Assembly: GCF_018863195.1 (NCBI RefSeq) | Contig: NZ_JAHKRT010000007.1 | Span: 62,001-126,000 of the forward strand | Origin: Sphingomonas quercus | Lineage (GTDB): Bacteria; Pseudomonadota; Alphaproteobacteria; Sphingomonadales; Sphingomonadaceae | DNA: 64,000 nucleotides | Reading direction: 5' to 3' | In this document: one piece after another, positions 3,388-30,040 of the stretch | Position numbering within the stretch: position 1 is the first letter of the stretch | Layout of the letters: each line of letters begins with the position of its first letter | Position numbers and translations under genes: made by a program | Notes under the pieces: model-generated | What the model was told of the DNA's origin: nothing | What the model saw: the letters and a program-made list of their open reading frames with translations, nothing else | Databases searched by the model: none

Positions 3388-3433
3388 CTCGTGAGCATTA
3401 GCGAACTCGGCCCCGTGTTTTCGCCGTGAGAGG
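3388..3433 (-). repeat. attL: 22-bp core plus degenerate tRNA-Glu 3' half
   Basis: Bases 3412-3433 are identical to 28482-28503. The 24 bases to the left (3388-3411) still match 15 of 24 bases of the tRNA-Glu 3' end at 28458-28481, giving 37/46 overall at a constant offset of 25,070. This is what is expected if integration displaced the original tRNA 3' half, which has since decayed without selection. It is not a functional tRNA. Confidence 0.85.
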
Positions 3434-3566: not shown

Positions 3567-4853
3567 ATGGGTGTTGTTCGGGAAGTTCGGCTGTTTGAGC
3601 GCACCACGCGCAGGCGGCTGGCTGTCCGCCATCACCCTTATTGGCGGATGATCTCCGAGGGTGCCCACATTGGCTACTACCGCGGACCTCGCGGTGGCAA
3701 GTGGGTGGCCCGTTATCGCGAGGCCGGCTCCAACGAGCCTTACGCGACCCTGTCGCTTGGGACCGCCGACGACATGGTCGAGGCGGACGGCGAGATGGTG
3801 CTCAACTACAAGCAGGCGCTCGACAAGGCCAATGCGTGGATCAAGCAGCAAGCCAATGGCGGCCGCACCCTCAATCCCAATCTGACCGTCCGCGACGCGA
3901 TAAAAGCCTATATCGAGATTCGGGACGCACGGGTGGCCGCGCACGGTGGAAAGCACTCCAGCGGCTATTACACGCTCAACAAATACGCGCTCCCTGACCG
4001 GACCCTGTGCAGGATCAAGCTATGCGACCTGAGCGAGGCCGAGCTTCGCGGCTGGCAACGCCGTCTCAAGGGCGTCGGCGCGACCACGAAGCAGCGCGTC
4101 GTCACCGACCTCAAGGCGGCGCTGAACCTCGCCTTCGAGGAGCACCGCCGCGCGCTGCCGAGCGACCTACCGATCACGATCAAATACGGGCTCAAGCCGG
4201 TGTTCGTCGACGATGCCCCGTCCGAGCCGGCGCGGGACAATCAGGTGCTGGCCGACGACCAGATTCGGCGCATCCTCGCCAAGGGCAAGGAAATGGACGA
4301 GGATGGCGACCACTTCCTCCTGACGATGCTGCTGGCCGCCACGGGCGCGCGCTTCTCGCAGGTGACGCGGATGCTGGTCGGCGACGTGCAACCCGAATTC
4401 AAGCGCGTAATGGTGCCGCCATCAAGGAAGGGCAGGGGCCGCAAGCCCGGCAAGCCCATTCCCGTGCGGGTGGGACCAGACGTGCTCGCGGTACTGGAGG
4501 GAACGGCCGAAGGCCGCAAGGCATCGGAGCCGCTACTGGTCCGATGGCGATACCGTCAGATCTCCCCGACCAAATGGGTGCGTGTCGACCGCCGGGCCTG
4601 GACCAGCTCGTCGGAGATGTCGCGCTGGTGGGCGGAGATCGTCAAGGCGGCTGGCTGCCCCGGCGTCATCCCCTACGCCCTGCGCCACAGCTCAATCGTA
4701 CGAGCGATCCGCAACGGCCTCCCGATCCGGCTGGTGGCCGCGCTCCACGACACATCGGTTGCGATGATCGAGAAGCACTATGCCCGCTGGATCACCGAGA
4801 GCCTGGACGAACTGGCGGCGCAGGCGGTTGTGCCCCTGTTACATGCGGCGTGA
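3567..4853 (+). CDS. int: Tyrosine recombinase (site-specific integrase)
   Basis: This 428-residue phage-type integrase has an N-terminal arm-binding region, a core-binding domain (about 105-195) and a C-terminal catalytic domain. Catalytic residues visible are R262 (ATGARFSQV), R373-H374 in YALRHSS (the usual HxxR reads YxxR), H394 (LHDTS) and nucleophile Y405 (KHYARW). It catalyses integration into and excision from tRNA-Glu through the 22-bp core. The gene lies directly inside attL, as usual for tRNA-borne islands. It is full-length with no frameshift, so the island could still be excisable. Confidence 0.93.
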   Translation: MGVVREVRLFERTTRRRLAVRHHPYWRMISEGAHIGYYRGPRGGKWVARYREAGSNEPYATLSLGTADDMVEADGEMVLNYKQALDKANAWIKQQANGGRTLNPNLTVRDAIKAYIEIRDARVAAHGGKHSSGYYTLNKYALPDRTLCRIKLCDLSEAELRGWQRRLKGVGATTKQRVVTDLKAALNLAFEEHRRALPSDLPITIKYGLKPVFVDDAPSEPARDNQVLADDQIRRILAKGKEMDEDGDHFLLTMLLAATGARFSQVTRMLVGDVQPEFKRVMVPPSRKGRGRKPGKPIPVRVGPDVLAVLEGTAEGRKASEPLLVRWRYRQISPTKWVRVDRRAWTSSSEMSRWWAEIVKAAGCPGVIPYALRHSSIVRAIRNGLPIRLVAALHDTSVAMIEKHYARWITESLDELAAQAVVPLLHAA

Positions 4854-5290
4854 GGGCAGGCTGCCCTACGCGTCGGGAGGAAGGCGTGAGATACCCACCG
4901 CCTCTTTTGTTAGCGGGGACCGGAGACGTCGAACGCCGCTGCCAATGGCGCGGGCCGGACGGGAGTTGGACGTCGGTAGTTGGGCGGTTGAGGGCTGGCA
5001 GTTTTTAGGTGCGGTAGAGTGAAATGCGGACCTTCGATTAGCTAGCCAGTGAAACAAAGAAGGCACAACCGCGCCCCTGCAGCTGACCCTTCTCTGATCC
5101 CAGAAGCCGCCGTCCATTCAGCATCTGCAACGACACGAAAATTTTTGGTGCCCGTCCATCTTGCTAAGCGGCATAGCAGCAATTTCGGCCGCTCGTTCAT
5201 AGATCGCCACGACGATCGGTCGACTAAGACCTTAACCTGTTCGATCAGGGTAGAAGCCTTTGGCAGTTGGGCCAATCTGATTTGAGCTCG
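4854..5290. other. 437-bp gap without a recognised gene
   Basis: This stretch lies between the integrase stop and the convergent polymerase-like gene stop. I see no credible coding frame, tRNA or strong terminator. It is somewhat less GC-rich than the backbone. An RNA partner of the neighbouring RT operon could lie here at its 3' side, but nothing in the sequence demands it. Confidence 0.4.
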
Positions 5291-6877
5291 TCAAACTTCG
5301 TTGTCCTTTGGAGCGGAGGAGGTTTGCTCACGTTCGGCAAAGTCACTGATCGACGCCTTGCCCGAGACCCGTCCGCCGAGCACTTCGCTCATAGCCCTCT
5401 CGAAGGCCTCGACGACCCCGCCCGGTGTATCGGCGAGCGTGTGCTCGAACAGAAGTGCGTCGTGCATTGGCAGGACGACTCTTACGTCTTCGATGGAGGC
5501 TGCCGCCAGCAGCGCGCGCTTGAATATCAGTGAGGCCGTGCCCTGTACCACCTGGCTGACGGCCGAACGCTGCTCCTTGCGGGTGAGCTGTCCCCCGCCG
5601 GTTCGACGATAGTGATTGCCTAGAATGGTGGCTACCCGGCCGGCGGTCTGGAACTCGGTCCACACCCCCCTCTTCCAGTCTTCGTAGCGTTGGAAGAGCC
5701 GAAACGCCTCCTTCGCCTTCTGCCTGTCAACTCCGAGCGAGACGGCAGCGTCCACAAGCGCCTTGCGGGTCATCCCGTAGGCATAGGACAGGAATAGCTG
5801 CTTGGAGGCCTTCCGATTGCCGATAAGCCCTAGGTGCGTAGTCGCGAAGAGCTCGTACATGTCACCTGCCGCATAGAGCCGCTTGAGTTCCTCGTCATCG
5901 GATAGTGCTGCCATGATCCCGACCTCGAACTGGTCGAAGTCGACGTAGCCGAGTTGGGCATCACCGTGCGCGGTAATGATCGACCGATATCGTTTCGGGA
6001 TGTTCTGCAGGCTGGGACTACGCAGTTGCACGCGCGATGTGCGCGAGCCAAACACGTCGACTACCGGTCGCGTAATGTCGGTAGACAGGGTGAGCGAGCC
6101 AAGCACTCTACGCGCCGTGCCAAGGGCAAGGAGCGCAATTGTGTCGCCGCCGAAGTCGTTTTCGTGCGGCACGAACTCCAGGAGATATTCGACGGAAACC
6201 TCGTCCAGCTCGAAACCTTCTTTGAGCAACTTGGCCTCAATGGCGCGCCTGCTCGGCGTCTCGAGCGGCATGTCGTGCTTCGCGGAATAGTCCTTCAGCA
6301 GCAAGAAGTAGTCGTGCTCCGCCTGCATCCGCTTGTCCGAGAGCCCTGCCGTGTCGATCGAGATGCCGGCCGACATCGAGAGCTGGAGCAACCGGTAGGC
6401 GGGTACTTCGACGGAAAAGAAGCGCTCGAGCTCGCCTTCGACGGACGCCTGCGCGCAGAGGTCAAGATACATCGCCGCGATCGCCATCGCGGCACTGGCG
6501 GCGACCGTTCCGTCAAACGGGACGCCCTTGTTGAACATCTTCTGATACGTGTCACGGACCTCCTGCTCGGCCCCGTATTGCCCAAGCAGTGCCGTGACGT
6601 CGCGTTTCTCACGGGCGAGCCGTTCCTCGGGGATTCCGCTAATCGAGATGCGGAGCTCATCGATGTCGATGATCGTGCCGGGCAGCGTGCCCGTGCTGTC
6701 GAACAGTGCATCGCGGATCATCCAGAAGTCGTGGCACACTACAATGCCCGGAAATGTGACGACGCTCGCAGCGTCGGTCTCCTGGACCCGCCCGTCCTGG
6801 AACCAGTAGAAGGCGTCCGCTCCCCTCCCGGTGAAGTCCTTTATGAAGAGCAGGAGCCTGGAGGCCAGGTCAATCAT
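5291..6877 (-). CDS. Truncated family-A DNA polymerase-like protein, RT-associated
   Basis: The 528-residue protein has a recognisable Pol I palm/fingers: SPSLQNIP (287-294), motif A DFDQFE (D313, E318), O-helix RKASKQLFLSYAYG (R355, K359, Y367) and motif C MHDALLFE (D473). It lacks the 5' nuclease domain. The first 150 residues only vaguely recall a 3'-5' exonuclease fold (VVCHDFWMIRDAL, TIIDIDELRIS), with no convincing catalytic carboxylate set. Leu363 replaces the usual Phe/Tyr of the O-helix and Ala474 replaces the Glu after the motif C Asp. Its start overlaps the RT stop by 8 bases, so the two are translationally coupled. It should act as a nucleotide polymerase working with, or after, the RT. 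Confidence 0.85.
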   Translation of the reverse strand: MIDLASRLLLFIKDFTGRGADAFYWFQDGRVQETDAASVVTFPGIVVCHDFWMIRDALFDSTGTLPGTIIDIDELRISISGIPEERLAREKRDVTALLGQYGAEQEVRDTYQKMFNKGVPFDGTVAASAAMAIAAMYLDLCAQASVEGELERFFSVEVPAYRLLQLSMSAGISIDTAGLSDKRMQAEHDYFLLLKDYSAKHDMPLETPSRRAIEAKLLKEGFELDEVSVEYLLEFVPHENDFGGDTIALLALGTARRVLGSLTLSTDITRPVVDVFGSRTSRVQLRSPSLQNIPKRYRSIITAHGDAQLGYVDFDQFEVGIMAALSDDEELKRLYAAGDMYELFATTHLGLIGNRKASKQLFLSYAYGMTRKALVDAAVSLGVDRQKAKEAFRLFQRYEDWKRGVWTEFQTAGRVATILGNHYRRTGGGQLTRKEQRSAVSQVVQGTASLIFKRALLAAASIEDVRVVLPMHDALLFEHTLADTPGGVVEAFERAMSEVLGGRVSGKASISDFAEREQTSSAPKDNEV

Positions 6878-8606
6878 AGGCGCTGACCTCGTCGACGAGG
6901 TTCAGGAGATCAGTGCTCTCCCGCACGGCGAACGGGAGGCCATCCTCGTTACAGTGGCGCTCGGCCCTGGGCCCCGTCCCCTTCAGGCAGGCGGGGACAT
7001 GGCCGTAGAGCGGACGCCGCGCGTCTTCGTCCAAGACGGACGAGGCAATGAGAAGGTAGCGGGCGTTCTGGTAGGGCAGCGTCGTGAACTCCTGCACGCA
7101 TTTCTCGATCAGCGCCTTCTCATCGACGCAGCGGAGCCAGATCAGAATGGCGGCCGCCTCGCCCGACTTCATGTCTTCCCGCAGCTTGCGGTCCGCCAGT
7201 GCTACGAGATCGTCGGACCGGTGCCTCCGCGCAGCGAGCAGCATCCAGATGTTGTAGTTCTGCCAATCGTGGATGGCCCCATCCTCCGCGAGCAGGAACG
7301 CTTCCAGGGCCGGCAGGCAGCGCCCGTCGCGATCAAGCGTGGCGATCAACCGGCAGTACTGATCAGTCGTGACGGCGTGCTCGGACAGCGAGCGCGACAG
7401 CGTGTCGAGGAGGTTAGCCGACAACGCGTCGCCCACGTCGAAGAGTCCGGACTCCACGATCTTCGCCACCCGGTTTACCGCGAAGCGAAAGGTCCGCGAC
7501 TGCGAATCCCTCTCTTCGATGCATCGACTCAGAATCTCGAAGATGTACGTTACCGATCTGGTCACGATTCGCCGGCTGCGGGACTGCCACATCTGGTTGA
7601 TCGCGATGGTAGAACTGTCCTGTGAGGGGAAGTACTCCGCGACTTTCTTGTTCGATACGTCGGGTGCGAGGATCTCGGTCTTGTTGGCGTTGATATTGAG
7701 GCCCACCGTCCGTAGCTGCCGGATGAGATCCTGGAGGGCGCGCCGGGCGTGCAGCTCGGAATCGGCAATGATGCGGATGTCGTCGACGTAGCGGTAGTAA
7801 TCGTAGCCCTTCCTCGTCATCTCCCTGTCCACGAACGACAGCAAGATATTGGACAGGAATGCCGATGCGTCACGGTTCTGCGGCAGGCCATGGTCGCGGC
7901 TGAACGTCCATTGCGTGAGCAGCCGGTCGAGGGTGGCGATCGCGTTGCGGATCTGCAGCTTCTCCGGGCCGGTCGCGGCGAGGTCAGGGACTGCTTGCTC
8001 GAGCGCTTTGATGATCTGCACGCGAGAGATGTTCTCGAAGAAATTGCTCAGGTCGGTGACCAGCAGATGCCGTCCCGACTTGCGGAAGGTCAGCGTGACG
8101 CCTTCGAAGGTGAACCAGCGGTCGATCTTGTTCTTAAACAGATACTTCTCATTAAGGGGAGCAGGCTCGAACCGATAGCTTAGGACGCGATGGCCAAGGA
8201 GTGAATCGTAAAACGGGATCAGAAAACTGCAGATAGCCTGATAGACAAAGCGGTCGAAAAAGTCAGTCTCCAGGCCATAACGTTCCCCGTACCCCTTCTT
8301 TGGAATATTACGGACAACGCTGCGCGTACCGCGGTACTCGCCGTTCCATTCCTGCAAAAGCGAGATAATAATCCGCTTCGCCTCAGCCTGATCCTTGAAA
8401 AGGTCCTCATAATGAAGGCAGTCAAAATACCAGTCGTCACGCATGTCTTGACGGAGGTGCTTCAGCACCAAGTCGAATCGAACTGGAAATCCAAGCGCCT
8501 GGCCGTTCAGCCAGAAGGCGGGACTAAGAGCATAATCGCTCTTTTCGTCAGTCTCACCACTGCTGTTCACTCCAATGTGGTTCCTCGGTTCCAGCGGGTT
8601 AAGCAT
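6870..8606 (-). CDS. Reverse transcriptase, UG/Abi-like defence type
   Basis: The 578-residue protein carries the RT signature: motif A VTDLSNFF (D185), motif B GLPQNRDAS (240-248), motif C YVDD (273-276) and motif D GLNINANKT (302-310). There is no maturase, endonuclease or thumb X domain of group II introns and no retron-type VTG motif that I can see. Residues from about 340 to the end look all-helical, as in UG/Abi RTs that act in phage defence. It is the first gene of a two-gene operon with the polymerase-like gene and is divergent from the STAND operon. The exact UG group cannot be assigned by eye. No clear Shine-Dalgarno precedes the ATG at 8606, so the N-terminus is uncertain. Confidence 0.9.
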   Translation of the reverse strand: MLNPLEPRNHIGVNSSGETDEKSDYALSPAFWLNGQALGFPVRFDLVLKHLRQDMRDDWYFDCLHYEDLFKDQAEAKRIIISLLQEWNGEYRGTRSVVRNIPKKGYGERYGLETDFFDRFVYQAICSFLIPFYDSLLGHRVLSYRFEPAPLNEKYLFKNKIDRWFTFEGVTLTFRKSGRHLLVTDLSNFFENISRVQIIKALEQAVPDLAATGPEKLQIRNAIATLDRLLTQWTFSRDHGLPQNRDASAFLSNILLSFVDREMTRKGYDYYRYVDDIRIIADSELHARRALQDLIRQLRTVGLNINANKTEILAPDVSNKKVAEYFPSQDSSTIAINQMWQSRSRRIVTRSVTYIFEILSRCIEERDSQSRTFRFAVNRVAKIVESGLFDVGDALSANLLDTLSRSLSEHAVTTDQYCRLIATLDRDGRCLPALEAFLLAEDGAIHDWQNYNIWMLLAARRHRSDDLVALADRKLREDMKSGEAAAILIWLRCVDEKALIEKCVQEFTTLPYQNARYLLIASSVLDEDARRPLYGHVPACLKGTGPRAERHCNEDGLPFAVRESTDLLNLVDEVSAYD

Positions 8607-8949
8607 AGGGTTGCGGCGTCGGTTTAATGCGTCTCGATCGGATCGTCACAGCCCGCCGTTCCTGACGAAACTCGCATGTTCTGAATGCCAACGAGTAGCA
8701 AGATCTCAAGGATTAGCCGCTGACAAGGTCGAGCTGATCCTTTGCTCGAACGCCAATCTGATCTCGTCTTCCACGCTCAAAAATCCCTTGATTCCCACCA
8801 TAGCCAACATGACGCTAGCAGCTTCGTCTGGCAACCTGATGTGGCGCAGGATCGGATGGACGAGCGTTCGAAGCTCGCTTCACGTTTGCGCAAAAATCGG
8901 CGGGTATCCCCCCTTTCCTGCGCACGCCCGTATCGCCTATGTTCCACGA
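8607..8949. other. Divergent promoter region between RT and STAND operons
   Basis: These 343 bases must hold promoters for both operons. They contain a short hairpin-forming palindrome (CGAGC-GTTCGAA-GCTCG, about 8862-8878), but no gene, terminator or strong extended structure that would establish a non-coding RNA. Many defence RTs use a nearby structured RNA template, so this is a sensible place to look for one. Confidence 0.4.
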
Positions 8950-11900
8950 ATGTTCGAGATCACCGGCGAAGATGTTGCACGACTGGGGGATGCTGATCTG
9001 CGTACGCTGGTCGCGCGCCTAGCATTGGCGGAGCTTGCCTCCCAGGGACTGCCCCAATCCGCAGTGACGGCGGGCGGGCATCAGGATGCCAGGGACGGAG
9101 GGATCGACGTGCGCGTCGAGGTCTTAGGCGCGCTCGCCGCCGCCGATTTCGTACCGAGACCGGTGACCGGGTTCCAGGTCAAGCGGCCCGACATGCCTGC
9201 ATCCGAGATCATGAAGGAGATGCGTCCGGAACCGGCAAAAGAGCTGCGTCCCGCGATAGCGCGCCTCGCCGAGCGTGATGGGGCGTACATTATCGTGAGC
9301 GCGCAAGGATCGGTTGCCGATCAGCCGCTTATAGACCGACGACAGGCGATCCGCGACGCCCTGACGGACTGCGCGGATGCGGACAAGCTCCACACGGACT
9401 TTTACGATCGCGAGCGGCTGGCCACATGGGCAAATCGCTACCCCGGTGCTGCAGCATGGGTACGCGCTCGGGTTGGCGCGCCGATGACGGGCTGGCGCGC
9501 GATCGGTGCATGGTCGAACACGGAGGTGGTGCAGGGCCATCCTTACCTCGTTAGCGATGAGGCGAAGGTCATCGGTGAGCGGACCGGTGGTCGCGACGAG
9601 CTCACGATCCTGCAGGCGCTCGACACCCTTCGAGAGAAGCTGTCGATGCCGCGCCAGTGCATCCGCCTCATCGGCAGGTCGGGCGTTGGTAAGACGCGCT
9701 TTGTCGAGGCTCTGTTCGAACCGGGCGTTGGGGCGGCCGCCCCGCTTGATCCTGCATTCTCGGTGTACACCGACTTCGACGAGGATATCGCGCCAAGCAC
9801 GCGGGAAATGGCGCGTCGCCTCGTCGAAGCGGGCCAGCGCGCGATCCTTGTCATCGATAACTGCAATCCGGCAACGCACAGTGAGCTGGCCACCATCTGC
9901 AACCGTCCTGGCAGCCAAATAAGCCTGCTCACCGTCGAATATGATGTTCGTGATGACGAGCCCGAGCGCACCGAGGTGTTCCGGCTCGTCACAACGTCGA
10001 AAGGCGCGATCGAGACGTGGCTGCACCGCGAGTTCCCGCATGTCTCACAGGTGGATAGAGGCACGATCGCCCAGTTCAGCGACGGCAACTTCCGAGTTGC
10101 CCGTGCGCTCGCCGGTACGGTGGGTCGGGGAGAGACGCTGGGCCGACTGCGTAGCCAAGAGCTCTTCGAGCGGCTGTTCGTCCAGCGCAACGCTCCTGAC
10201 CATCAGCTGTTGCGCGACGCCGAGGCGCTGGCGCTTGTATACTCATTCGATGGCGAGGATGACGGCCCTTCCGGTGAGCTCGCGAACCTCGGGACACTCG
10301 CTGGACGTAGCGTGCGCGAGCTCTTCGGCGCAGTCGCCGAGCTTCGTGGACGCGGCATCATTCAATCGCGCGGCCGCTGGCGCGCAGTGTTGCCCCAAGC
10401 GATCGCGAACAGGCTTGCCGCAAGTGCATTGGCCCGCATCCCGCCGAGAGCAGTCGACGGCTTCTGGCGATCAGCATCGGCACGCCAACTCAAATCGTTC
10501 GCGCGGCGCATCGGCTACCTCCACGACAGCGCGGAAGCGCGCGAGGTCGTCGGCCGGTGGCTGAATCCCGATGGACCACTGGGGAATCTATTCGAACTGG
10601 GAGACATCGGGCTCGACATCTTGCGCGGCTTGGCGCCGGCCTCGCCCAAGGTGGTCCTTGCGGCGATGCACGCGGAACTGGATGGGGCGCGTGGCGAGCG
10701 TACCATCGCCACCTCGAACCGATCGCGTAGCGGTTGGATCAGGCTTCTAAAGGCGCTGGCGTACGAATCTGGGACGTTCGAAGCGGCGGCGAAGCTGCTC
10801 GCTCGCTTCGTTTGGGCAGAACCGGAAGGCCATAATTCCGATCCGGCGCGGGAGCCATTCGCTGAGCTCTTTCACATCCACCTGTCTGGAACGCGCGCAT
10901 CGCCTGAACAGCGACGGGGCCTCGCGAAGACGCTTATCGCGAGCGGCGACGCCACACAGATGCGCGCTGGCGCGGTGGCGCTTGGTGCGTTGCTCAAAAC
11001 CTCCCTCTTCTCGTCGCACGCGTCGTTCGACTTCGGCGCGCGGCCGCGCGATTTCGGCTGGCATCCCACGACGCGTGACGAGATCGATGCATGGTACAAT
11101 GGCGCTATCGACTTGGCAGTCGACACAGCGCCGGTTCTGCCGGAGGCGAGCTCGCTGCTCGGCAGCCACATACGTGGCATCTGGCATTTTGCAGGTTGCC
11201 ACGATCGCATCGAGGCTGCTGCGGAACGCTTTCGCGTGAACGGCAGCTGGATCGATGGGTGGATTGGTCTGCGCGGCACGCACCGCTGGGATGGGAATGG
11301 CCAGTCCTCCGAGGAGCGAGGGCGTCTAGAGGCCTTGATCAGAAGCGTGGAACCTAAGAGGCTTCTCGAGCGGGCGCGCGCAGTGGTCCTCTCGCACAGC
11401 GCGCTCGGTTTCGACATCACGGACGGTGATGAGGCCGATCCGGTTCAGGCCTATCATCGCGCGTCTGACACGGCGATCGATCTCGGAAAGGCGATGGCCA
11501 CCGAGCATGCCGACCTTCCGGTATTTCTCGGCGAAGTGTTCGCCGGTCATGCCGCGCGGGCATTCGAGTTCGGCTGCGGGCTTGCCGCAGGCTCCAATGA
11601 TCCCCGCGCCACTTGGGATCTGCTGACCAGCGCGTTCGCCGCCGCAGGGCCCGGACAACGCGAGATCAGCATTCTGGGCGGTTTCGTCTCAGCGCTCCAC
11701 CGATCCGATGCTGGCGCCACGAACGCGATTCTCGAGGAGACGATGCGGGATGAGGAACTGCGGCACGCCCTGCCTTTTCTCCAGTCGCGCGCCGCGCTGG
11801 ATCGAGAGGGGCTTGACCGGCTCCGGCGCGTGGCGGCGGCTCGGCTGGTCGAGGCGGAGGATTTCTCGAGCCTCGCATGCGGGGTTGTCGAAGGCACCCA

Positions 11901-12726
11901 ACCTGACCTGCTGGTGGAGATGCTCGATGTCGTCTCCCGCCTGGATAGAGGGTCGGGCGTGGCGCTCGACATCCTCCACACGCGTCTCATGTGCGAAAAG
12001 GATAGCGGAGTCGAGCTGCCCGCTGAACTCACCAGCTATGGGAGGGCTCTCCTTTGCCGGGCAGACTTCGGCCTCGCACGAGCCGGACGCGACTATCGGC
12101 TTGGCGCTCTGGTGGAATATTGCTTCGCCGGCCCAGACGCGGCCGACGACGCCCGCATCCTCTGCCAGCGCCTCGTCGCCGCGATCAGGGCCTATGAGAT
12201 CTATGTCCATGACTCCCATTATTTCCTGACTGCCCTGTTCAAGACTCAGCCGCTTCCCGCGCTTGACTGCGTTCTCGACAATGGCGTCGATGGCGCCGAC
12301 GAGGATATGTTTGAGGTCAGTGTGAGTCGGACCTCGCCATTGGATCAGGTTCCTGCCGCTATGCTGGTCGGCTGGGCCGACCAGGTACCCGAGCGTCGCT
12401 ACCCCCGCCTTGGCGCTGCAATGTCGATCTTCGTGCTTCGAAATCTCGACGAGGTCACCGGCCTGTCTGACCACTTCATCGGAGTGATGGCGCATGCGCC
12501 TGACAAGGCCGCATTCCTGGGCAGTCCTTTCAACACCGTGCATCCGCGCGGATGGGTGGGCTCGCTCGTCGCCAATCTCGAGCATCGCAAATCGGTGCTG
12601 GCCGGCTTGGAGCAACTCGGTGACGCCCAGGTGAACGCGTGGCTCATCATAGCAAACCGCACAATCGACAACTGGATTGCGGCAGAACGCGAGCGCGAAA
12701 ATGCGCAGGAAGAGAGCTTCGAATGA
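8950..12726 (+). CDS. PD-(D/E)xK nuclease fused to STAND ATPase (Avs-like defence protein)
   Basis: The product is 1258 residues. The N-terminal domain has a restriction-endonuclease-like DGGIDV (49-54) with FQVK (75-78), the PD-(D/E)xK pattern of Mrr-type nucleases. A STAND-type NTPase follows: Walker A GRSGVGKT (242-249) and Walker B AILVIDNC (298-305). The remaining roughly 850 residues are helical repeats of the kind used as ligand sensors. Avs proteins share this order and, on sensing a phage protein, cut DNA indiscriminately; the same role is inferred here. The start MFEITGEDVARL is chosen because the nuclease domain begins directly after it; an in-frame ATG 375 bases upstream lies in non-coding-looking sequence. 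It leads a two-gene operon. Confidence 0.85.
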   Translation: MFEITGEDVARLGDADLRTLVARLALAELASQGLPQSAVTAGGHQDARDGGIDVRVEVLGALAAADFVPRPVTGFQVKRPDMPASEIMKEMRPEPAKELRPAIARLAERDGAYIIVSAQGSVADQPLIDRRQAIRDALTDCADADKLHTDFYDRERLATWANRYPGAAAWVRARVGAPMTGWRAIGAWSNTEVVQGHPYLVSDEAKVIGERTGGRDELTILQALDTLREKLSMPRQCIRLIGRSGVGKTRFVEALFEPGVGAAAPLDPAFSVYTDFDEDIAPSTREMARRLVEAGQRAILVIDNCNPATHSELATICNRPGSQISLLTVEYDVRDDEPERTEVFRLVTTSKGAIETWLHREFPHVSQVDRGTIAQFSDGNFRVARALAGTVGRGETLGRLRSQELFERLFVQRNAPDHQLLRDAEALALVYSFDGEDDGPSGELANLGTLAGRSVRELFGAVAELRGRGIIQSRGRWRAVLPQAIANRLAASALARIPPRAVDGFWRSASARQLKSFARRIGYLHDSAEAREVVGRWLNPDGPLGNLFELGDIGLDILRGLAPASPKVVLAAMHAELDGARGERTIATSNRSRSGWIRLLKALAYESGTFEAAAKLLARFVWAEPEGHNSDPAREPFAELFHIHLSGTRASPEQRRGLAKTLIASGDATQMRAGAVALGALLKTSLFSSHASFDFGARPRDFGWHPTTRDEIDAWYNGAIDLAVDTAPVLPEASSLLGSHIRGIWHFAGCHDRIEAAAERFRVNGSWIDGWIGLRGTHRWDGNGQSSEERGRLEALIRSVEPKRLLERARAVVLSHSALGFDITDGDEADPVQAYHRASDTAIDLGKAMATEHADLPVFLGEVFAGHAARAFEFGCGLAAGSNDPRATWDLLTSAFAAAGPGQREISILGGFVSALHRSDAGATNAILEETMRDEELRHALPFLQSRAALDREGLDRLRRVAAARLVEAEDFSSLACGVVEGTQPDLLVEMLDVVSRLDRGSGVALDILHTRLMCEKDSGVELPAELTSYGRALLCRADFGLARAGRDYRLGALVEYCFAGPDAADDARILCQRLVAAIRAYEIYVHDSHYFLTALFKTQPLPALDCVLDNGVDGADEDMFEVSVSRTSPLDQVPAAMLVGWADQVPERRYPRLGAAMSIFVLRNLDEVTGLSDHFIGVMAHAPDKAAFLGSPFNTVHPRGWVGSLVANLEHRKSVLAGLEQLGDAQVNAWLIIANRTIDNWIAAERERENAQEESFE

Positions 12727-12760: not shown

Positions 12761-13762
12761 ATGAGCGACCGCGCCAACGCCTGCGCGATATGCGAGGGTG
12801 CCGCCGGTGCGGTGTGCACGACCTTCCAAGTGTCGGGCAAAGATGCGCTCGGTTTCGCCTGCGAGGCCTGCGGCGAATATGAGGTGGCGCGCACCGCCCT
12901 GGTCAATTGGTTTGGAGGAACGCGCCGGCTCGACGCGCGCGAGCGCGCCGCTCTGGCGCACCGCGTCCGTATCACCGACCGCTCGTCGGGGCGCCCGCTC
13001 GTCACGACGTTCTGGCTGGATCAGTTCGTGCCCACGGCGCGCGTGCCGAGCCCGGCCCTGCAGGCGGCAAATCTCATCCGAGTGGTGGGAGACCATGTGA
13101 GCCACACGGGCGAAGGATATTTCATCGACGGAGTCCGGGATGCCACGCTGATCGGATCCTTCAACCAAATGATGTTTGATCAACTCATCCGCGAGCTGAC
13201 TGAAAGAAAGGTACTGATCAACGCGGGCAGCGCGACCATCCCGAACCCACGCGGACCGGGCGTGCTATCCGGAAGGCTCCATGGGCTCTCGCTTGATGGA
13301 TGGGAACGGTATGAGGCCGAGCAGCGCGGTAAGATGGCCGGAAAATACGGCTTCATGGCGATGAAGTTCGGGGACGTGGAATTGGATGCCTTCTCCGAAC
13401 GCGTGATCAAGCCGGAGGTCGAGTCCGCGATCGGCTACACCGTCGTCGACCTGAGGAACGTCTCACGCGCCGGCGTCATCGACAATCTCATGAGGGAGCA
13501 GATCAGGGATGCTGCGTTCGTGCTGGTCGACCTTACCCATGACAACTTCGGCGCCTATTGGGAAGCGGGCTATGCGGAGGGGCTCGGCAAGCCAGTGATC
13601 TATCTATGCGAACGAACGAAGTTCGAACGCGCTCGAACCCATTTCGACACCAACCATTGCACGACCGTGCTTTGGTCAATCAGCGAGGAAGATCAATTCC
13701 GTCGTGAACTCGTCGCAACTCTCCGCCGATCACTGAACCTGTTCGCAAAGGAGACGGATTAG
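12761..13762 (+). CDS. Zinc-ribbon protein with nucleoside deoxyribosyltransferase-like domain
   Basis: The 333-residue product starts with two CxxC pairs (C8/C11 and C34/C37), a probable zinc ribbon. A middle region of unknown fold follows. A C-terminal domain (about 198-290) has FMAMKF, then DLTHDNFGAYWEAGYAEGLGKP, the conserved pattern of the nucleoside 2-deoxyribosyltransferase/TIR-like fold, with E268 placed like the catalytic Glu. Such domains can act as base- or NAD-cleaving effectors in immunity. It starts 34 bases after the STAND stop on the same strand, so it is probably cotranscribed. Whether it is an effector, a sensor or a housekeeping passenger is inference. Confidence 0.72.
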   Translation: MSDRANACAICEGAAGAVCTTFQVSGKDALGFACEACGEYEVARTALVNWFGGTRRLDARERAALAHRVRITDRSSGRPLVTTFWLDQFVPTARVPSPALQAANLIRVVGDHVSHTGEGYFIDGVRDATLIGSFNQMMFDQLIRELTERKVLINAGSATIPNPRGPGVLSGRLHGLSLDGWERYEAEQRGKMAGKYGFMAMKFGDVELDAFSERVIKPEVESAIGYTVVDLRNVSRAGVIDNLMREQIRDAAFVLVDLTHDNFGAYWEAGYAEGLGKPVIYLCERTKFERARTHFDTNHCTTVLWSISEEDQFRRELVATLRRSLNLFAKETD

Positions 13763-14120: not shown

Positions 14121-19760
<5,640 letters not shown>

Positions 19761-20617
19761 CGCGACGTCCTCCCTGTTCGCATGATGGCGCGCGCGGGGC
19801 GCGCGCCTCCCACCACCAGCCCCCGGCCCAACGGCACGGACGACACTGGCGGGGCTCAAAAACCGCTCTGTTCCAATGGCCCGACATGCACCCACGCCAG
19901 ACCCGACCCCCCACAAGGGCCAACCAACTCACTTCATTATATGAACAGAGAGGCATTAATGAGTTACGGATGATGAGAAATTAAATTGAGTAGTGCGCAA
20001 GATTGAATTCGAGACCGCGCCGGCAAGGGCGTCGAGCCCACCCGCGCCCCTCCTAGCCCGAACGCCGGCGAGAGGGCGTCGCTCCGCCATGCGGATGCTC
20101 CGCGCCACCCTCTCGCCGGGAACAAACGTCCGGGGAACGCGCCGCGCCGCCAGCAATTTGCCCCCGACACGGCGGCCAACTCGGCGCATCCGCAAGGCGG
20201 ATGCAGGCGTTCGGGACGCACACCCTGCGGGCGTAATGTGCAATGGACCCTACGCACGGGTGCTGCGGCGAAAATATCGCGCTAGATCAATGAGATGCGC
20301 ATGTAATACGCGTGCGACACCGGCCCGCAATCCTGTATTACAGCATATACGGCGTCTCATAAGCCACAGGTATCATCCTGAAATATAAGGAGGTTATTTG
20401 TAATACTTGTAATGCGACCCGATTTCCGGGGCGTGTCCCCGTGACCCGATGTGAGGGGGACCGGCTGGCGGTGATCGGGCAACGGGGAGGGGGCCGTCGA
20501 CCCGATCCGGTCGCCTTCCCACGCTCCAACGCACCCTTGAAAATATCATTTCTAGGGCGTAACTGTATTGTGCTTCATGACACTCCGTGAGGGTCCCGGA
20601 TTGGGAGTCCTTACGGC
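19761..20617. other. Non-coding stretch upstream of autotransporter and RHH operon
   Basis: The 857 bases hold promoters for the autotransporter (leftward) and the small-gene operon (rightward). I find no credible gene. An AT-rich part near 20280-20420 contains four TGTAATAC-like half-sites, listed separately, and an isolated AAGGAGG near 20387 that precedes no ORF longer than about 10 codons. Confidence 0.5.
20302..20415. repeat. Four TGTAATAC-type half-sites (possible operator or nicking region)
   Basis: TGTAATAC occurs at 20302-20309 and 20399-20406, its exact inverse GTATTACA at 20335-20342, and a one-mismatch copy TGTAATGC at 20408-20415. The first pair is inverted; the last pair is a 9-base tandem repeat. 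They lie 200-315 bases upstream of a ribbon-helix-helix gene, so they may be its operators or an element-specific recombination or transfer site. Confidence 0.45.
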
Positions 20618-21275: not shown

Positions 21276-21746
21276 GGGGTGGGGGCGGCGTGTATTGGCT
21301 GATAGTTGATAGGTGACTTTTAGAAGATCGCGACGGAATACTGTCATTTGCGAGGCAGGGGATCACATCTCACGCTCGCTTCCGCTCGCGATAATCGTTG
21401 ACGGACCAGTAGGTCTGTTGAGATCTCAAGTTTCTCGGCGGTGCCACGACCAGGATTCGGAGAATCACAACCGATTTGGACCTTCTATTCAGGCTCAATC
21501 CGGTTCGATCCAGTGGGCTTTCAATACGGTGGGCCCGGATTCTGTCACTTCCGCCCCTCCGGCGAACAAAACCGCTTGCGGCGCTCCGCATGCTTTCAAA
21601 CTTACAATATTCTTTGCTTCTTAGCCTACGGTCGCTAGCGTAGCATCGGACTGGGGGGCGCTGTTATTGTTTAGGCGGGGGATTGTCGGTCGAATTGCGG
21701 ATGCGACGACCCCGTGGTCGCCGACGACTGACGGTGCGCGCGGTGA
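21276..21746. other. Non-coding gap of about 470 bp before the GHKL operon
   Basis: This stretch lies between the AlpA-like gene and the GHKL operon. It is distinctly less GC-rich than the surroundings, especially 21540-21680, and should contain the promoter for the downstream operon. I see no convincing gene, RNA or repeat. Confidence 0.4.
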
Positions 21747-22193
21747 ATGGCGATGGTAGCACTGCTCAGGCGGGTTGCCGCTCTCCTTCGCCGCATCTTT
21801 GGATTATCGCCGCAGTCCAAGGAGCCGCTTCCGGCTCCTTCCGATCCTTTGTCCGATCGGCGGCCAGGGCCCGAGAATCCGCCGCAAGAGCAGTCAGCGG
21901 AAGAGCAATTGGCCGTGGATGGGCAGGGTCCGAAGCAGACTGCGAGCGCCGCGAGCGAAATCGAGGAGGCGACCGCAGATGCTGCGAGCGGCGCCTCGGC
22001 GCCGCCCAGCGCAGAGGGAATCGAGCGGTCGGCGACATGCGGCCCATCGATCACGCTGTACCGCACATCTCATCAGTCCACAGTGAAGAGGGCGAGGGGG
22101 GCGGCAACAAGCCGGAAGGCATGGCCGGTGAACGATGTCCGGCAATTGCATCCGGGTGGCGCGCCGCGCATGGTCGTTCGGATGAGGGGTTAG
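21747..22193 (+). CDS. Uncertain 148-aa ORF preceding GHKL ATPase
   Basis: The frame begins MAMVALLRRVAALLRRIFGL, a potential amphipathic membrane-binding helix, and continues as an Ala, Pro, Glu and Ser-rich region without recognisable domains. It ends 2 bases before the GHKL gene start, which suggests translational coupling and is the main reason to believe it. An internal ATG at 21753 is equally possible. Low-complexity composition keeps confidence modest. Confidence 0.4.
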   Translation: MAMVALLRRVAALLRRIFGLSPQSKEPLPAPSDPLSDRRPGPENPPQEQSAEEQLAVDGQGPKQTASAASEIEEATADAASGASAPPSAEGIERSATCGPSITLYRTSHQSTVKRARGAATSRKAWPVNDVRQLHPGGAPRMVVRMRG

Positions 22194-22195
22194 CC

Positions 22196-24106
22196 ATGAA
22201 CGATCAAGCTGCTGAGAAGCTCGCCAACGAGATACACCGGGCGCGCGTGAGCGGAGATGTCGTTCACGCGACGCTTCGTGTCGACGATCGCGTCCTCGCG
22301 CGTGTCACCGATGGCATCTATCGGCGGCCTTCGTCCGCCTTCCGCGAGCTCATCTCGAACGCCTACGACGCGGACGCGACCGAGGTCATCCTCCAGACCG
22401 ACGCGCCGCGTTTCGATCGCGTCGTTGTGCGCGACAACGGCCGCGGGATGTCGCCCGAATCCCTGGCCGACCTGGTGACGCACATCGGCGGTAGCTCGAA
22501 GCGTACGGCGAAGGGGAAGCGGCTCGGAACCGTCAGCGAAGACGATCCGACGCTATCGGTCGGAGGTCGCAGGCTGATCGGCAAGATCGGCATCGGGCTC
22601 TTCTCGGTCTCGCAGCTGACAAAGCACTTCCAGGTGATCACGAAGCGGCGCGGCGATGCGTTCCGTACGTCCGCCGTGATCGTGATGAAGACGCACACCG
22701 AGGAGATGCTCGCCGCCGCGTCCGAGGGCGATGTGTTTGAGACCGGCACGGTGAAGATCACCAGCGAGCCGGCCGCTGACGTCGACACGCAGGGGACCGA
22801 GATCATCCTGCTGGAGCTGACCCAGCAGGCGCGCGAGCTGCTGCAGAGCCTGGACCGGTGGTCCGAGCTGGATCGCGCCGAGGCCGGCGACATCGAGGGA
22901 TTGCCCCCGAGCCCGCCCAGCTACCACATCGGCCGCGTGGCCGCCGACGACGCCGACATCTTCCTCGAGCGGCCAAAGCTGCCTTGGCTGGCGTCCGACA
23001 GTCCGAAGGACAGGTTCCGCAAGCTCTACAATGCAGTCCGCCAGGAGGTTCGCACCCGCAAGGCCACCCCGAATGTCCAGGAATCGCTAGACGGCTATCT
23101 CGGGATGATCTGGCTGCTCAGCTTGGCCGTGCCGGTGCCTTACATCGACAAGCATCCGTTCGAGCTGACCGCGGACGACGGCATCGGCTTCTACCGACTG
23201 ACGAGCAGGACCGCGGAGGCGGTCGAGCTTTCGGACGGCGAGACGATCGGCGCGCATCTCGGGCTCACCAGTTCGGTCGATCCGGTCGGGCCGTTCCGCG
23301 TCCTGCTCGACGATGTCGAGCTGCTCCGCCCGGTTTCCTTCGACAGCCAGCTTCACGGCACCAGCGATATCGGGCGGCCTCTGATGTTCTTCGGCAAGGT
23401 AACATCGGGGCTTGGGGCCGTGCCGCCAGAGATCGGCGGGGGTGCGCTGTCCTTCGAGGCGTATCTGTACTGGAACCAGAAGATCACGCCAAAGGAGAAC
23501 AACGGCTGTCTCGTCCGCGTGAACAATGCGAGCGGTGTTCTCTTCGACCCGTCCTTTCTGAGCTACCAGGTCTCCGAGCTGACGCGGCTGCGCCAGCTGA
23601 TGTCTGAGGTCTTCATCACCGAGGGCCTCGACGCTGCGCTCAATATCGACCGCGAATCCTTCAACTTCAGCCATCCCCACTACCAGTATCTGCAGAAGTG
23701 GGTCCATTTCGCCGTCCGCCAGACGACCAACAAGTTGAAGGGGTTGAACAAGGAGCTCCTCGAGGCGAAGCGCGCGAAAGCTGAAGGTGCTCGCGTTTCC
23801 CGCCTGGAAACCCTGGTGGAACGGGTATGGCGGTCTCGCCGGGGAGTGGACTCGGAGCCGCCGCCGGAGGTGCGGTTGGCCGCCCGCGGCCAGTCTATGC
23901 TGACCGACCGTGATCGCGGCGTACTCGTCTTCGACGCGGATGCGCTTGAGGCCGAAGCGTCCAGGCGCGACAGCACCGTCGAGCCGGCCCAGCTCGAGGC
24001 TTTGGTGAAGGTGCTGTCCGCCTGGGGCTTGCTCGAGGAGATGAGCTGGGATGACCAGCAGTCGCTCCTTGCCGACATCGCCGCTGTGTTCGGGGTGCGG
24101 TCCTGA
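22196..24106 (+). CDS. GHKL (HSP90/MutL/MORC-like) ATPase of a defence operon
   Basis: The 636-residue protein carries a Bergerat-fold ATPase at its N-terminus: N-box ELISNAYDAD (E51, N55), G1 DNGRGM (80-85) and G2 GKIGIGLFS (129-137). An S5-like transducer domain and a coiled helical C-terminus follow. Prokaryotic MORC-like GHKL proteins have been described beside DNA methylases and Vsr-type nucleases, where the ATPase is thought to act as a DNA-loading clamp during restriction. The next gene overlaps by one base (TGATG). The Dcm-Vsr pair lies immediately beyond on the other strand, supporting a modification-linked defence role. Substrate and partners are inferred. Confidence 0.85.
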   Translation: MNDQAAEKLANEIHRARVSGDVVHATLRVDDRVLARVTDGIYRRPSSAFRELISNAYDADATEVILQTDAPRFDRVVVRDNGRGMSPESLADLVTHIGGSSKRTAKGKRLGTVSEDDPTLSVGGRRLIGKIGIGLFSVSQLTKHFQVITKRRGDAFRTSAVIVMKTHTEEMLAAASEGDVFETGTVKITSEPAADVDTQGTEIILLELTQQARELLQSLDRWSELDRAEAGDIEGLPPSPPSYHIGRVAADDADIFLERPKLPWLASDSPKDRFRKLYNAVRQEVRTRKATPNVQESLDGYLGMIWLLSLAVPVPYIDKHPFELTADDGIGFYRLTSRTAEAVELSDGETIGAHLGLTSSVDPVGPFRVLLDDVELLRPVSFDSQLHGTSDIGRPLMFFGKVTSGLGAVPPEIGGGALSFEAYLYWNQKITPKENNGCLVRVNNASGVLFDPSFLSYQVSELTRLRQLMSEVFITEGLDAALNIDRESFNFSHPHYQYLQKWVHFAVRQTTNKLKGLNKELLEAKRAKAEGARVSRLETLVERVWRSRRGVDSEPPPEVRLAARGQSMLTDRDRGVLVFDADALEAEASRRDSTVEPAQLEALVKVLSAWGLLEEMSWDDQQSLLADIAAVFGVRS

Positions 24107-25287
24107 TGGATGAGTTCAGCGACGCCGACATCGTCGGCCGCATCGCCCACCGCCCGGTCGCAGAGGAGCCGGCGCCGCGTCCGTTCAAGCCCTGGCATCG
24201 CCCGCGCAAGCAGTGGATCAGGCGATACCAGTGGCACGATTCGCTCGTCGACATGCTGCGGGAGACCCACTTTCCCGCAGACGCCCGCGTGATGCGCTAC
24301 CTGAGCCTGCCCGGTGAGGATCTACTGGACGTGCGGGTTCTCCGCGAGGCTTGCGAGCAGGCTGGCGTGGATCTGCGTTTCACCGGCCTGAACGCGGTGG
24401 GCGCCGGCTCTGCGCGTGACGTGCAGCTGAACATCGCGGAGAGCGAGGTTCGCGGCCTCTCCGGCATACATAAAGGGTCGGCGATCCTGCGCGAGCGCTT
24501 CGAGACGGTCGCGAACACCAGGTCGCTGGCATTCGCCGAGGTGCGCGATGGCGGCCCGTTTCACGCGGTAAACATCGACCTGTGCGACCATCTCGCACTC
24601 CGCCCGCAAGACGGCGGAGGGCACACCATCATCGATGCGCTTGCGGAAGTGATTCAGCTGCAACTGCAGCACGCGATGCATCCATGGCTGCTGTTCTTGA
24701 CTACCCGCGTCGCGCCAGACCAGATCGATGCGCGCAACCTAGCCGCGCTGATCAGGGCGGTCACCGATAACGTCGCCACCAGCGCCGCTTTCGGCGATCG
24801 GACGGCTGCGCTGCTCCGCGCCGAGGCGGACGGCCTGCAGGCGGCGCTCGATGATCCAGCGAGCCTCGATCCCCAGGCGTTCATGAATCTCTTCGCGCTG
24901 GGTTTCGGCAAGTGGCTGCTGAGGTTCGTCGGCGCGGCCAATCCCGGGCGCACGCTCCGGATGCTGCCGAGCTGCTTCTACGCCGTGCGCCCGGATCGAC
25001 CGGACATGCTGTCACTTGGTTTCCGGTGCGACGTGCCACGCGCCCCGGCGCAGGACCGGTATGCGCTCGTCGGCGAGCGCTGGGCTGACCCTGTCGCTGC
25101 CGAGGTGAATCACGCGATGGGACTCCTCGACGAGACAGAGCGACTGATGGATCTCGACGCGACACTGGCCGGCGACCACCAGTTAATGGAAGCAGTCACG
25201 ATTGAATCGGCAGCGCTCCTGCGCGCCGCTCACTACGACGTCGACGGTAACCCCGGTTATCGCGGGTGGCTGGACGCAGCTGCTTAA
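24106..25287 (+). CDS. Partner protein of GHKL ATPase, function unknown
   Basis: The 393-residue product begins MDEFSDADIVGRIAHRPVAE and has a hydrophobic strand followed by an acidic turn (YLSLPGEDLLDVRVLREA) that resembles the nucleotide-binding edge of a Rossmann-type methyltransferase, though no GxGxG loop is present. It is soluble, with no membrane segment. It overlaps the GHKL gene by one base, so the two are made together. Its 3' end overlaps the vsr 3' end by 4 bases on the opposite strand, tying the two half-operons physically. Exact family not recognised. Confidence 0.6.
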   Translation: MDEFSDADIVGRIAHRPVAEEPAPRPFKPWHRPRKQWIRRYQWHDSLVDMLRETHFPADARVMRYLSLPGEDLLDVRVLREACEQAGVDLRFTGLNAVGAGSARDVQLNIAESEVRGLSGIHKGSAILRERFETVANTRSLAFAEVRDGGPFHAVNIDLCDHLALRPQDGGGHTIIDALAEVIQLQLQHAMHPWLLFLTTRVAPDQIDARNLAALIRAVTDNVATSAAFGDRTAALLRAEADGLQAALDDPASLDPQAFMNLFALGFGKWLLRFVGAANPGRTLRMLPSCFYAVRPDRPDMLSLGFRCDVPRAPAQDRYALVGERWADPVAAEVNHAMGLLDETERLMDLDATLAGDHQLMEAVTIESAALLRAAHYDVDGNPGYRGWLDAAA

Positions 25288-25796
25288 AAATCCCTTGGAT
25301 CGCGGGGCCTGACACGGGCTGGTGCAGGGCCCAAGCCATCATCCGGACCATCGTGGTGGGGAAGCAGGATATCTGGCTTGCGCTGCGGCATTAATTCCAG
25401 GAGTCGGGAATTGAGCCCGGGTTTCCGCGCCTCGCATTCCCAGATCACCTCGACGTTCCAGCCGAGCGCAGCGAGTGCCGCCGCCGCAGCGGTGTCGCGC
25501 TCAGAATTTCGCCTGAACTTCTCCGCCCAGTATTCCTGCCTAGTCCGTGGCATCCGCGCATCACGGCATCCCGCGTGCTGATGCCAGAAGCATCCGTGAA
25601 CTAGGATAACGGTGCGGTGGCGGGGTAGCACGATATCCGGCTTGCCGGGCAGATCACTGCGGTGAAGGCGGAAGCGGTAGCCAAGCCGATGGAGGGCTCG
25701 CCTGACCATCATCTCCGGCTTGGTATCCTTGGATCGAAAGCCCGCCATCATTTTGCGGCGCGCCTCCGCCGAAAGGACGTTGCCAGCTGGTTCCAT
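25284..25796 (-). CDS. vsr: Very-short-patch repair endonuclease
   Basis: The 170-residue protein is a clear Vsr: KMMAGFRSKDTKPEMMVRRA, FRLHRSDLPGKPDIVLP (active-site D54) and the zinc/intercalation segment LVHGCFWHQH (67-74), then EVIWECEARK. Vsr nicks 5' of T:G mismatches created by deamination of 5-methylcytosine. It follows the cytosine methyltransferase on the same strand (71-base gap), the standard pairing. The C-terminal 30 residues (Pro/Arg/Asp rich) extend beyond the usual length, but the core is complete. Confidence 0.95.
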   Translation of the reverse strand: MEPAGNVLSAEARRKMMAGFRSKDTKPEMMVRRALHRLGYRFRLHRSDLPGKPDIVLPRHRTVILVHGCFWHQHAGCRDARMPRTRQEYWAEKFRRNSERDTAAAAALAALGWNVEVIWECEARKPGLNSRLLELMPQRKPDILLPHHDGPDDGLGPAPARVRPRDPRDF

Positions 25797-25867
25797 TTAC
25801 CTCAGCTTGGGCGCCGAGGGTGTGGTTTCAAGGCGCCACGGCTCCGCGACGAGCCGGTTTGCCATAA

Positions 25868-26929
25868 CTATGCGCGAGCACGCGCCTCTGTGGCGGACAT
25901 CCCGGCCGCCGGCTCGCGTGCGCAGTCGAGCGCGGCTATTTGGGTTCGAATCGACAGCGCGACCGCCGATGCGACTGGCGGCGGCACGGCCTCGCTGATC
26001 TGGACGATCTGCGAGGAAAGGCTGCCGATCAGCTCGTATCTCGGTGGGAACCCCTGGAGCAGCATCGCCTCGTAGACGCTCAGCCTGCGCGTGCAGCTGG
26101 GATGGATGTGCACCTCGCGGTGCCCGTAAGCGACCGTGGGGCTAGGTTTATCCCATGCGAGGGTCTTGAAGCTGCGGTTGCTGCCGTCACCGGGCTTGAG
26201 CGCGCCCGGAGTGGTGAACTTCGCCGACTTCGGCTTCATGCACCAGTGATTGACATGGTGCGGGATCCGGTCCGAGGTCAGCCCTCGCTTGTAGTAAGTC
26301 GCGTCGGGTAGGTGGCCAATCGCTTGTCGGACGTCCGGCCGGCGGCCATCGGCAGTCGGTATCTTCGGCGGCGGCGTCCACTTCGCGTCGCCGTAGAGGT
26401 CGCTGTTGAACCCAACCAGGAAGAGGCGCTCGCGGATCTGCGACGTCGAGTAGTCTGTGGCGAGGAGCACCGCACGGTTCAAGGTGAATCCGGCCTCCTG
26501 GAATGCCGACTCGTATCGTCGGAGCCGATGAGCGTGGCGCTCGCTCAGGAGCCCGGTCACATTCTCCATCACGAAGAATTTGACCGGGTTGCGCTCGTTA
26601 AGAGTTCCAAGCAGCTTCGCGTAGGCGAGCGGCAACGAATGTCGCGGATCCGCATCGAGGTACACGGTGTTAGCGCGGCTGAAGCTCTGGCAAGGCGGCC
26701 CGCCGATCACACCCTCGGGTGCGAATTCGCTTCCATGTAGCTCGTCGAGCTTTTCGAGGGTGAGCTTCGACACGTCGCCGACGTGCCCGTGGGAGGGACG
26801 GCTCTTGCGGTTGTGGTTGTAGGAGGCGATGCTGTCCTTGCGCAGATCGAACGCCAGACCGACTTCGTATTCCCGCGCCTCGAACCCGACATCGAGTCCG
26901 CCTGCCCCGCAGAAGAGGCTGAGTAGCAT
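25868..26929 (-). CDS. dcm: DNA cytosine-5 methyltransferase
   Basis: The 353-residue enzyme has motif I LSLFCGAGGLDVGF at the N-terminus, motif IV GGPPCQSFS (nucleophile C80), motif VI ENV (122-124), motif VIII QIRERLFLVG and a motif X-like EAVPPPVA. It should methylate C5 of cytosine at an unknown site; the target-recognition region (about 190-270) cannot be decoded by eye. The start at 26929 follows GGGGAGGCG. An ATG 87 bases upstream would add 29 residues and is possible. Vsr follows. No obvious cognate restriction endonuclease adjoins, so it may serve the GHKL module. Confidence 0.93.
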   Translation of the reverse strand: MLLSLFCGAGGLDVGFEAREYEVGLAFDLRKDSIASYNHNRKSRPSHGHVGDVSKLTLEKLDELHGSEFAPEGVIGGPPCQSFSRANTVYLDADPRHSLPLAYAKLLGTLNERNPVKFFVMENVTGLLSERHAHRLRRYESAFQEAGFTLNRAVLLATDYSTSQIRERLFLVGFNSDLYGDAKWTPPPKIPTADGRRPDVRQAIGHLPDATYYKRGLTSDRIPHHVNHWCMKPKSAKFTTPGALKPGDGSNRSFKTLAWDKPSPTVAYGHREVHIHPSCTRRLSVYEAMLLQGFPPRYELIGSLSSQIVQISEAVPPPVASAVALSIRTQIAALDCAREPAAGMSATEARARA

Positions 26930-29964: not shown

Positions 29965-30040
29965 CTCTCGTCTTCCCAAAAGCCTGAAGGGTGGGTTTCC
30001 TTGCGCGTCCGGGCGCGTGAAAGCAACCGCAGCTTTTCTA

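Follow-up and report, generated by a model that had tools for sequence, protein, structure and literature searches.

The locus described here raises the question of why a reverse transcriptase (RT) should be encoded together with a second, stand-alone DNA polymerase, and of what the two enzymes might make between them. It lies in a 64,000-nucleotide (nt) stretch of the Sphingomonas quercus genome (contig NZ_JAHKRT010000007.1, positions 62,001 to 126,000; hereafter the window, numbered from its first letter). An initial annotation made from the letters alone had proposed that the two genes form a new RT-based defence system, and both of the open reading frames (ORFs) on which it was built are present at the coordinates and on the strand that it gave:

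6870..8606, minus strand: ORF of the UG9 reverse transcriptase (PADLOC RT_UG9_small, 797.8 bits; Pfam RVT_1, 50.4 bits)
5291..6877, minus strand: RT-associated family-A DNA polymerase of 528 amino acids (aa), hereafter PolA (PADLOC RTasPolA, 567.2 bits; Pfam DNA_pol_A, 81.7 bits)
6870..6877, minus strand: 8-nt overlap of the RT stop and the PolA start, equal in length in 23 of 24 loci

The pair is a real, conserved two-polymerase module of the defence-associated reverse transcriptase (DRT) kind, and one that has already been catalogued. By profile search the RT falls in group UG9 of the UG/Abi reverse transcriptases: besides its score with RT_UG9_small, it reaches 275.8 bits with UG9_large and 172 bits with the best PADLOC model outside UG9, UG32. 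The closest non-UG9 models are UG32, UG21 and UG7/DRT8, all of which we take to be Class 1-like. The partner is a stand-alone family-A enzyme resembling DNA polymerase I (Pol I), and its RTasPolA model is classed under DRT in PADLOC. The host genome (3.64 Mb, 15 contigs) holds one RVT_1 match in all and a second Pol I-like match, which is 33% identical to PolA across residues 278–486.

The claim of novelty does not stand. UG9 RTs with a PolA-type neighbour are in print (PMC8934634), PADLOC holds models for both proteins (RT_UG9_small, RT_UG9_large and RTasPolA), and a 2021 survey of complete genomes reports the Pol I-type model PRK14975 next to 94% of the UG9 RTs (PMC8934634, Table 4). The window matches this arrangement in both RT group and partner, and is another member of it. 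UG9 itself has been placed near the Abi lineage, in an uncertain relationship, and is described from Proteobacteria only (PMC4244168); we found no functional study of UG9 in the literature collection searched.

Our comparison covers 24 loci: the window, two viral contigs (L032/L052, which are one contig, and L033), three plasmid loci that represent five plasmid records (of which Dinoroseobacter shibae accounts for three), 15 genome contigs collected by the RT alone, and three further genomes collected by PolA alone. Hosts bearing names are alphaproteobacteria, apart from one Paraburkholderia and one Vreelandella. A polymerase start follows the RT gene in 23 of the 24 loci, and in these the pair is kept with an overlap of exactly 8 nt (counted by script in 22 loci and read separately in L032), the length that the annotation had noted in the window. 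Homologous RTs therefore do not generally lack the polymerase, a finding that the annotation had named as one that would count against a coupled system. Because this overlap persists even though fourfold-degenerate sites have a mean identity of only 36–38% between loci, its constancy is more than chance. Two copies are decayed: in L050 (10001–10993) the RT match stops at about residue 320 in unrelated sequence and PolA is absent, and in L046 (11700–13251) the gene arrangement is kept and the PolA frame is interrupted.

The two proteins also share a history. Identity to the window ranges from 71 to 92% for the RT (22 sequences) and from 61 to 84% for PolA (21 sequences), and the distance matrices of the two are tightly correlated across 22 loci, with L050 and L046 excluded (Mantel r 0.946; the best of 9999 permutations reached 0.488). 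PolA evolves faster, with a mean distance ratio of 1.59. Ratios of nonsynonymous to synonymous substitution rates (dN/dS) against the window are 0.039–0.123 for the RT, where 12 of 22 comparisons yielded a value, and 0.042–0.207 for PolA, where 16 of 20 did. For these ratios and for a scan of synonymous sites, L050 was excluded, L046 and L048 were excluded for PolA, and the RT row of L041 was given no weight. Judged from these sequences, both proteins are under purifying selection, and RT and PolA are a conserved, co-inherited unit. Within the window's family PolA occurs in only four genomes out of 397, one of them that of the window, so the pair is rare. Wider profile searches gave a next best score of only 81.3 bits for UG9_small in 289 genomes of the class, nothing above 88.1 bits besides the window for UG9_large in 398 genomes of the phylum, and, in the same number of phylum genomes, a next best score of 165.5 bits for RTasPolA, from ORFs of Pol I length. 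Phage records held no match to the RT and 63 distant polymerase matches, none spanning 80% of PolA.

Although the ORF from 6870 to 8606 is present as annotated, translation of the RT probably begins inside it, at a GTG at position 8570 (codon 13), giving a protein of 566 aa. We prefer this start because in five loci (L033, L034, L044, L046 and L081) the stretch from the upstream stop to the beginning of the match lacks an in-frame start codon, and because the loci align from about that point. The annotated motifs, YVDD with D275/D276 and PQNRDAS, are both present; D275 and D276 of the full ORF are D263 and D264 in the 566-aa numbering, and these two residues are invariant in 23 aligned sequences together with D173, Y261 and V262. 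Profile comparison of the RT domain returns group II, UG15 and AbiK structures (AbiK at E 1.8e-7). The AlphaFold model of the protein is weak, with a mean predicted local distance difference test score (pLDDT) of 60 and 10-residue blocks of 82–92 across residues 441–520, and a fold search with this low-confidence model gave no match at E 0.001 or better. The helical C-terminal half that had been read from the sequence does appear in the model, which is all helical from about residue 333 onward and best at 441–520, but with the confidence just given. A further residue, Y48 in the 566-aa numbering and Y60 of the full ORF, is invariant and sits in a low-confidence loop between N-terminal helices. 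AbiK Tyr44 and Abi-P2 Tyr61 are reported to prime DNA from loops in the N-terminal part of the protein (PMC9508834), and by analogy Y48 is a candidate priming tyrosine, which we offer as a lead.

Two other classes of RT were tried and rejected for this protein. For the group II intron model TIGR04416 the cut-off is 300 bits and the score 69.4, so that an origin in this family of mobile retroelements, the alternative that the annotation had itself named, is not borne out. The retron model retron_St85 scores 43.2 bits against a cut-off of 235, with the Ec67 and TIR retron models lower still. Between positions 4700 and 9000 we saw no long near-identical pair of repeats, in a comparison that included no search specific to diversity-generating retroelements.

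The AlphaFold model of PolA is confident (pLDDT 85). Pol I and Pol theta types make up all of its best 50 fold matches, KlenTaq, Bst and Pol theta among them, with tied Z scores of 22.3–23.2 over almost the whole chain (residues ~4–516). On this model the protein consists of an exonuclease-like domain (residues ~4–145) and a polymerase domain, and lacks the 5′ nuclease of Pol I, as had been proposed. D313 and D473 align with motifs A and C of Escherichia coli Pol I (D705 and D882) and are invariant in 22 aligned sequences, as are the equivalents of Pol I R754, K758, Y766, R841, Q849 and H881. Pol I F762, G763 and E883 are replaced by Leu, Ser and Ala in all 22 copies (F762L, G763S and E883A), and the equivalent of E710, which we take to be the steric gate, is kept. 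The suggestion that the proofreading site is not intact holds for three of the four canonical 3′–5′ exonuclease ligands, in an alignment made partly by eye: positions 12, 54 and 129, matched to Pol I D355, D424 and D501, are non-acidic in 22 of 22 sequences, and position 14, matched to E357, is Asp. The automatic profile alignment of this domain was not sensible, and the matches were made by eye except for that of D501 to position 129, which comes from a weak hidden Markov model alignment. The exonuclease-like fold is nevertheless present and retains six other invariant acidic residues (D14, D50, D56, D71, D73 and E74).

Two local features of the polymerase gene stand apart. In the Vreelandella copy (L048, 11673–13487) ~95 aa are inserted in frame after residue 425, and the other aligned copies lack this insert. 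Codons 106–125 (window 6503–6562) show a fourfold-site identity of 0.58–0.66 against 0.38 overall, on few comparisons, and this may be chance; the synonymous-site scan of both genes is otherwise flat.

An RNA-templated first step, as the annotation had suggested, would lead one to look for a conserved RNA beside the genes. We compared the upstream regions of all 24 loci and the downstream regions of the 23 with PolA, and folded the leaders of two clades. The leader of the pair in the window is as follows:

8571..8680, minus strand: leader of the RT–PolA pair, with a short stretch in common near GCTTAACC, ~40–50 nt 5′ of the RT start

Among the pairs of loci listed, an artefact row for L050 aside, homology stops at most 240 nt upstream and at most 139 nt downstream. 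In most of the leader, identity is close to that of fourfold-degenerate sites, and in the 40–80 nt closest to the RT it is often somewhat higher (between the window and L038, 0.75 against 0.60), as would be expected of a promoter, a ribosome site or a small RNA. Seven leaders of the window's clade gave no consensus structure, and four leaders of another clade gave 52 pairs, none of them doubly changed. A weak structure (−3.59 kcal/mol; 3 of 16 pairs doubly changed) came from four leaders of the window's clade, a subset chosen afterwards. Its covariation score, computed on the same sequences from which the structure was derived, was matched by 18 of 500 shuffles; it is modestly above shuffles and a hint only. 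An Rfam scan of 4800–9000 gave no match. No strongly constrained flanking RNA thus emerges, and the suggested template is left with this weak hint in the leader of one clade.

The setting of the pair, which the annotation had described as a defence island, includes two further genes:

3567..4853, plus strand: tyrosine integrase (Pfam Phage_integrase, 36.8 bits)
8575..12726, plus strand: ORF with PD-Lambda-4 A homology from ~8950, a neighbouring defence gene (PADLOC PD-Lambda-4_A, 1135 bits)

The pair is divergent from the PD-Lambda-4 A homologue and near the integrase. Elsewhere its neighbour is ZacABC in L049, a type III methyltransferase in L051, a HamB-like helicase in L039, a type IIG enzyme in L036 and a type IIG/ISP enzyme in L052, so that other defence genes adjoin the pair in at least six of the 24 loci, the window counted. 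This is a raw count and a lower bound, since the scan of 91 neighbouring ORFs listed the 25 most matched of 97 families; large neighbours in L040 and L081 that we suspected of being defence genes had no PADLOC match. When up to four ORFs on each side in the 24 loci were clustered (E 1e-8 and half coverage; simple ORF calling may miss genes shorter than 90 aa), the only recurring neighbours were recombinases, namely a serine recombinase family in four loci and a tyrosine integrase in two. Because nothing else recurs, two genes may suffice. Carried as it is on plasmids, phage contigs and an integrase-bearing island, RT–PolA is a mobile two-gene module. On the viral contigs, by eye, the pair stands among phage-type genes (head-morphogenesis-like in L033, ParB-methyltransferase-like in L032), as if cargo.

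The island in the window has candidate boundaries. A direct repeat (27 of 29 nt, 22 of them exact) joins 3405–3433, beside the tyrosine integrase, to 28475–28503, within a tRNA-Glu(CTC) gene (28459–28534, minus strand) 25 kb from the integrase side, and the two copies are candidate attachment sites of a ~25-kb island. In two relatives (L110 and L112) the tRNA-Glu gene adjoins a homologue of window ORF 28591–30141, as it does in the window, and in a third (L111) it lies ~2 kb from such a homologue. None of these three stretches, of 17 kb each, matches any island ORF or left-flank ORF; with no left-flank ORF matched, only the right boundary is supported. Three other parts of the window may be recorded here. 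A 333-aa ORF after PD-Lambda-4 A (12761–13762) has a weak TIR effector match (31 bits) and a nucleoside deoxyribosyltransferase match under that model's cut-off. A 1931-aa ORF in the candidate island (14121–19916) looks by eye like a glycine-rich autotransporter. In a second defence cluster (21683–27016) a Vsr nuclease (91.7 bits) and a cytosine methyltransferase (238 bits) accompany an ATPase-like ORF whose match to type II restriction is weak.

What, then, might the two polymerases do? The reading that we favour, tentatively and without yet calling it probable, is that this is a UG9-type defence RT system, a mobile two-gene module in which two DNA polymerases act together. The UG9 RT would start a DNA strand, probably on its own tyrosine and without a dedicated RNA template; the proofreading-deficient, Klenow-like PolA would then copy or extend the RT-made strand; and phage infection would yield non-genomic DNA in duplex form, which would halt the cell or sequester phage factors. 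The two-step synthesis put forward in the annotation is plausible. A protein-primed, template-free start, the model for the first step, is reported for AbiK, Abi-P2 and DRT3b, and DRT1 is described as carrying out protein-primed DNA synthesis (PMC13275509). The RT resembles AbiK in its RT domain and, going by the weak model, may resemble it in a helical C-terminal half; AbiK and Abi-P2, by contrast, are described as working without a polymerase partner (PMC9508834). By analogy a duplex product would have precedents in DRT3, where duplex repeat DNA is made by two RTs and a non-coding RNA (ncRNA) (PMC13174585), and in DRT7, where duplex-like DNA is made by an RT–primase fusion (as described in PMC13213688). 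Like DRT3, the window has two coupled polymerases in one locus, and its module could give a duplex product, but its partner is a family-A polymerase where DRT3 has a second RT, and no ncRNA is established for it. Like DRT7 (UG10), it joins an RT to a second, unrelated DNA polymerase, but through separate overlapping genes in place of a fused primase-polymerase, and its Klenow-type partner would be expected to require a primer. PolA in turn shares whole-chain fold and polymerase motifs with the Klenow fragment and Pol theta, and departs from them in the lost exonuclease ligands and the three substitutions described above. A narrower proposal, which we consider doubtful, is that UG9–PolA is a third, distinct route by which defence RTs produce duplex DNA, with a protein-primed RT strand, dedicated Klenow-like fill-in, no RNA template, and enzymes made together through the fixed 8-nt overlap; the weak structure in four leaders makes its template-free aspect slightly less likely.

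Several points weigh against the favoured reading. What the two enzymes do is inferred from sequence and models: that they are active, that the RT primes on protein, the order in which they act, the double-stranded product and the effect on phage. The RT model is poor, so that the helical domain and the priming loop are weakly supported; the loss of exonuclease ligands rests partly on alignment by eye; and because six invariant acidic residues remain, the exonuclease-like domain may have some other nuclease activity. In principle a helper polymerase is not needed, since the DRT2 RT synthesizes its own second strand (PMC12039810). Finally, the flanking sequences give a hint of a small templating RNA. 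An RNA-templated version, in which a small unrecognised RNA, in the leader or elsewhere, serves as template for the RT and second-strand synthesis falls to PolA, would fit the ncRNA templates that Class 2 DRTs encode in cis (PMC13174585), the leader of up to 240 nt that close relatives have in common and its more similar RT-proximal part. The structure in four leaders was, however, scored on the sequences that gave it, the seven leaders of the same clade share none, the other clade has no doubly changed pairs, Rfam is silent and the closest models outside UG9 are Class 1-like, and we regard this version as unlikely.

That PolA acts as a regulator or guard, binding the RT or its product and restraining the RT until a phage interferes, with catalysis secondary, is suggested by the fixed overlap, which points to co-translation and perhaps a complex, by the faster evolution of PolA, and by the uniform replacement of F762, G763 and E883. 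Yet a non-catalytic role is hard to explain when both catalytic aspartates and the six other Pol I equivalents are invariant in 22 sequences, and we consider it improbable. We give little credence, too, to a role outside defence, in which the pair would help to replicate its carrier mobile elements or to mend breaks in them. Its presence on plasmids, phage contigs and an integrase-bearing island, the place of Pol theta among the closest folds to PolA, and a group II-like RT active in double-strand break repair (PMC12337344) would all fit. The window RT, however, is of the UG/Abi type and not group II-like, the carriers vary, the clustering of the nearest ORFs shows no recurring replication gene, and other defence genes adjoin the pair in at least six of the 24 loci; because PolA scores about equally with Pol theta and with bacterial Pol I, the fold gives no functional pointer.

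The pairing of a UG9 RT with a Pol I-type polymerase was already known; what is added here is the constancy of the overlap, the co-inheritance of the two genes, the invariance of key residues and the genomic setting over 24 loci. The defence RTs in the papers cited make DNA on their own, with the help of an ncRNA, in partnership with a second RT (DRT3) or fused to a primase-polymerase (DRT7). Because the pair is compact (~3.3 kb), no third partner recurs beside it and both proteins carry predicted catalytic residues, the proposal is directly testable by cloning. If it is true, a separate, repair-type polymerase would be another route from improvised strands to stable duplexes as an immune effector.

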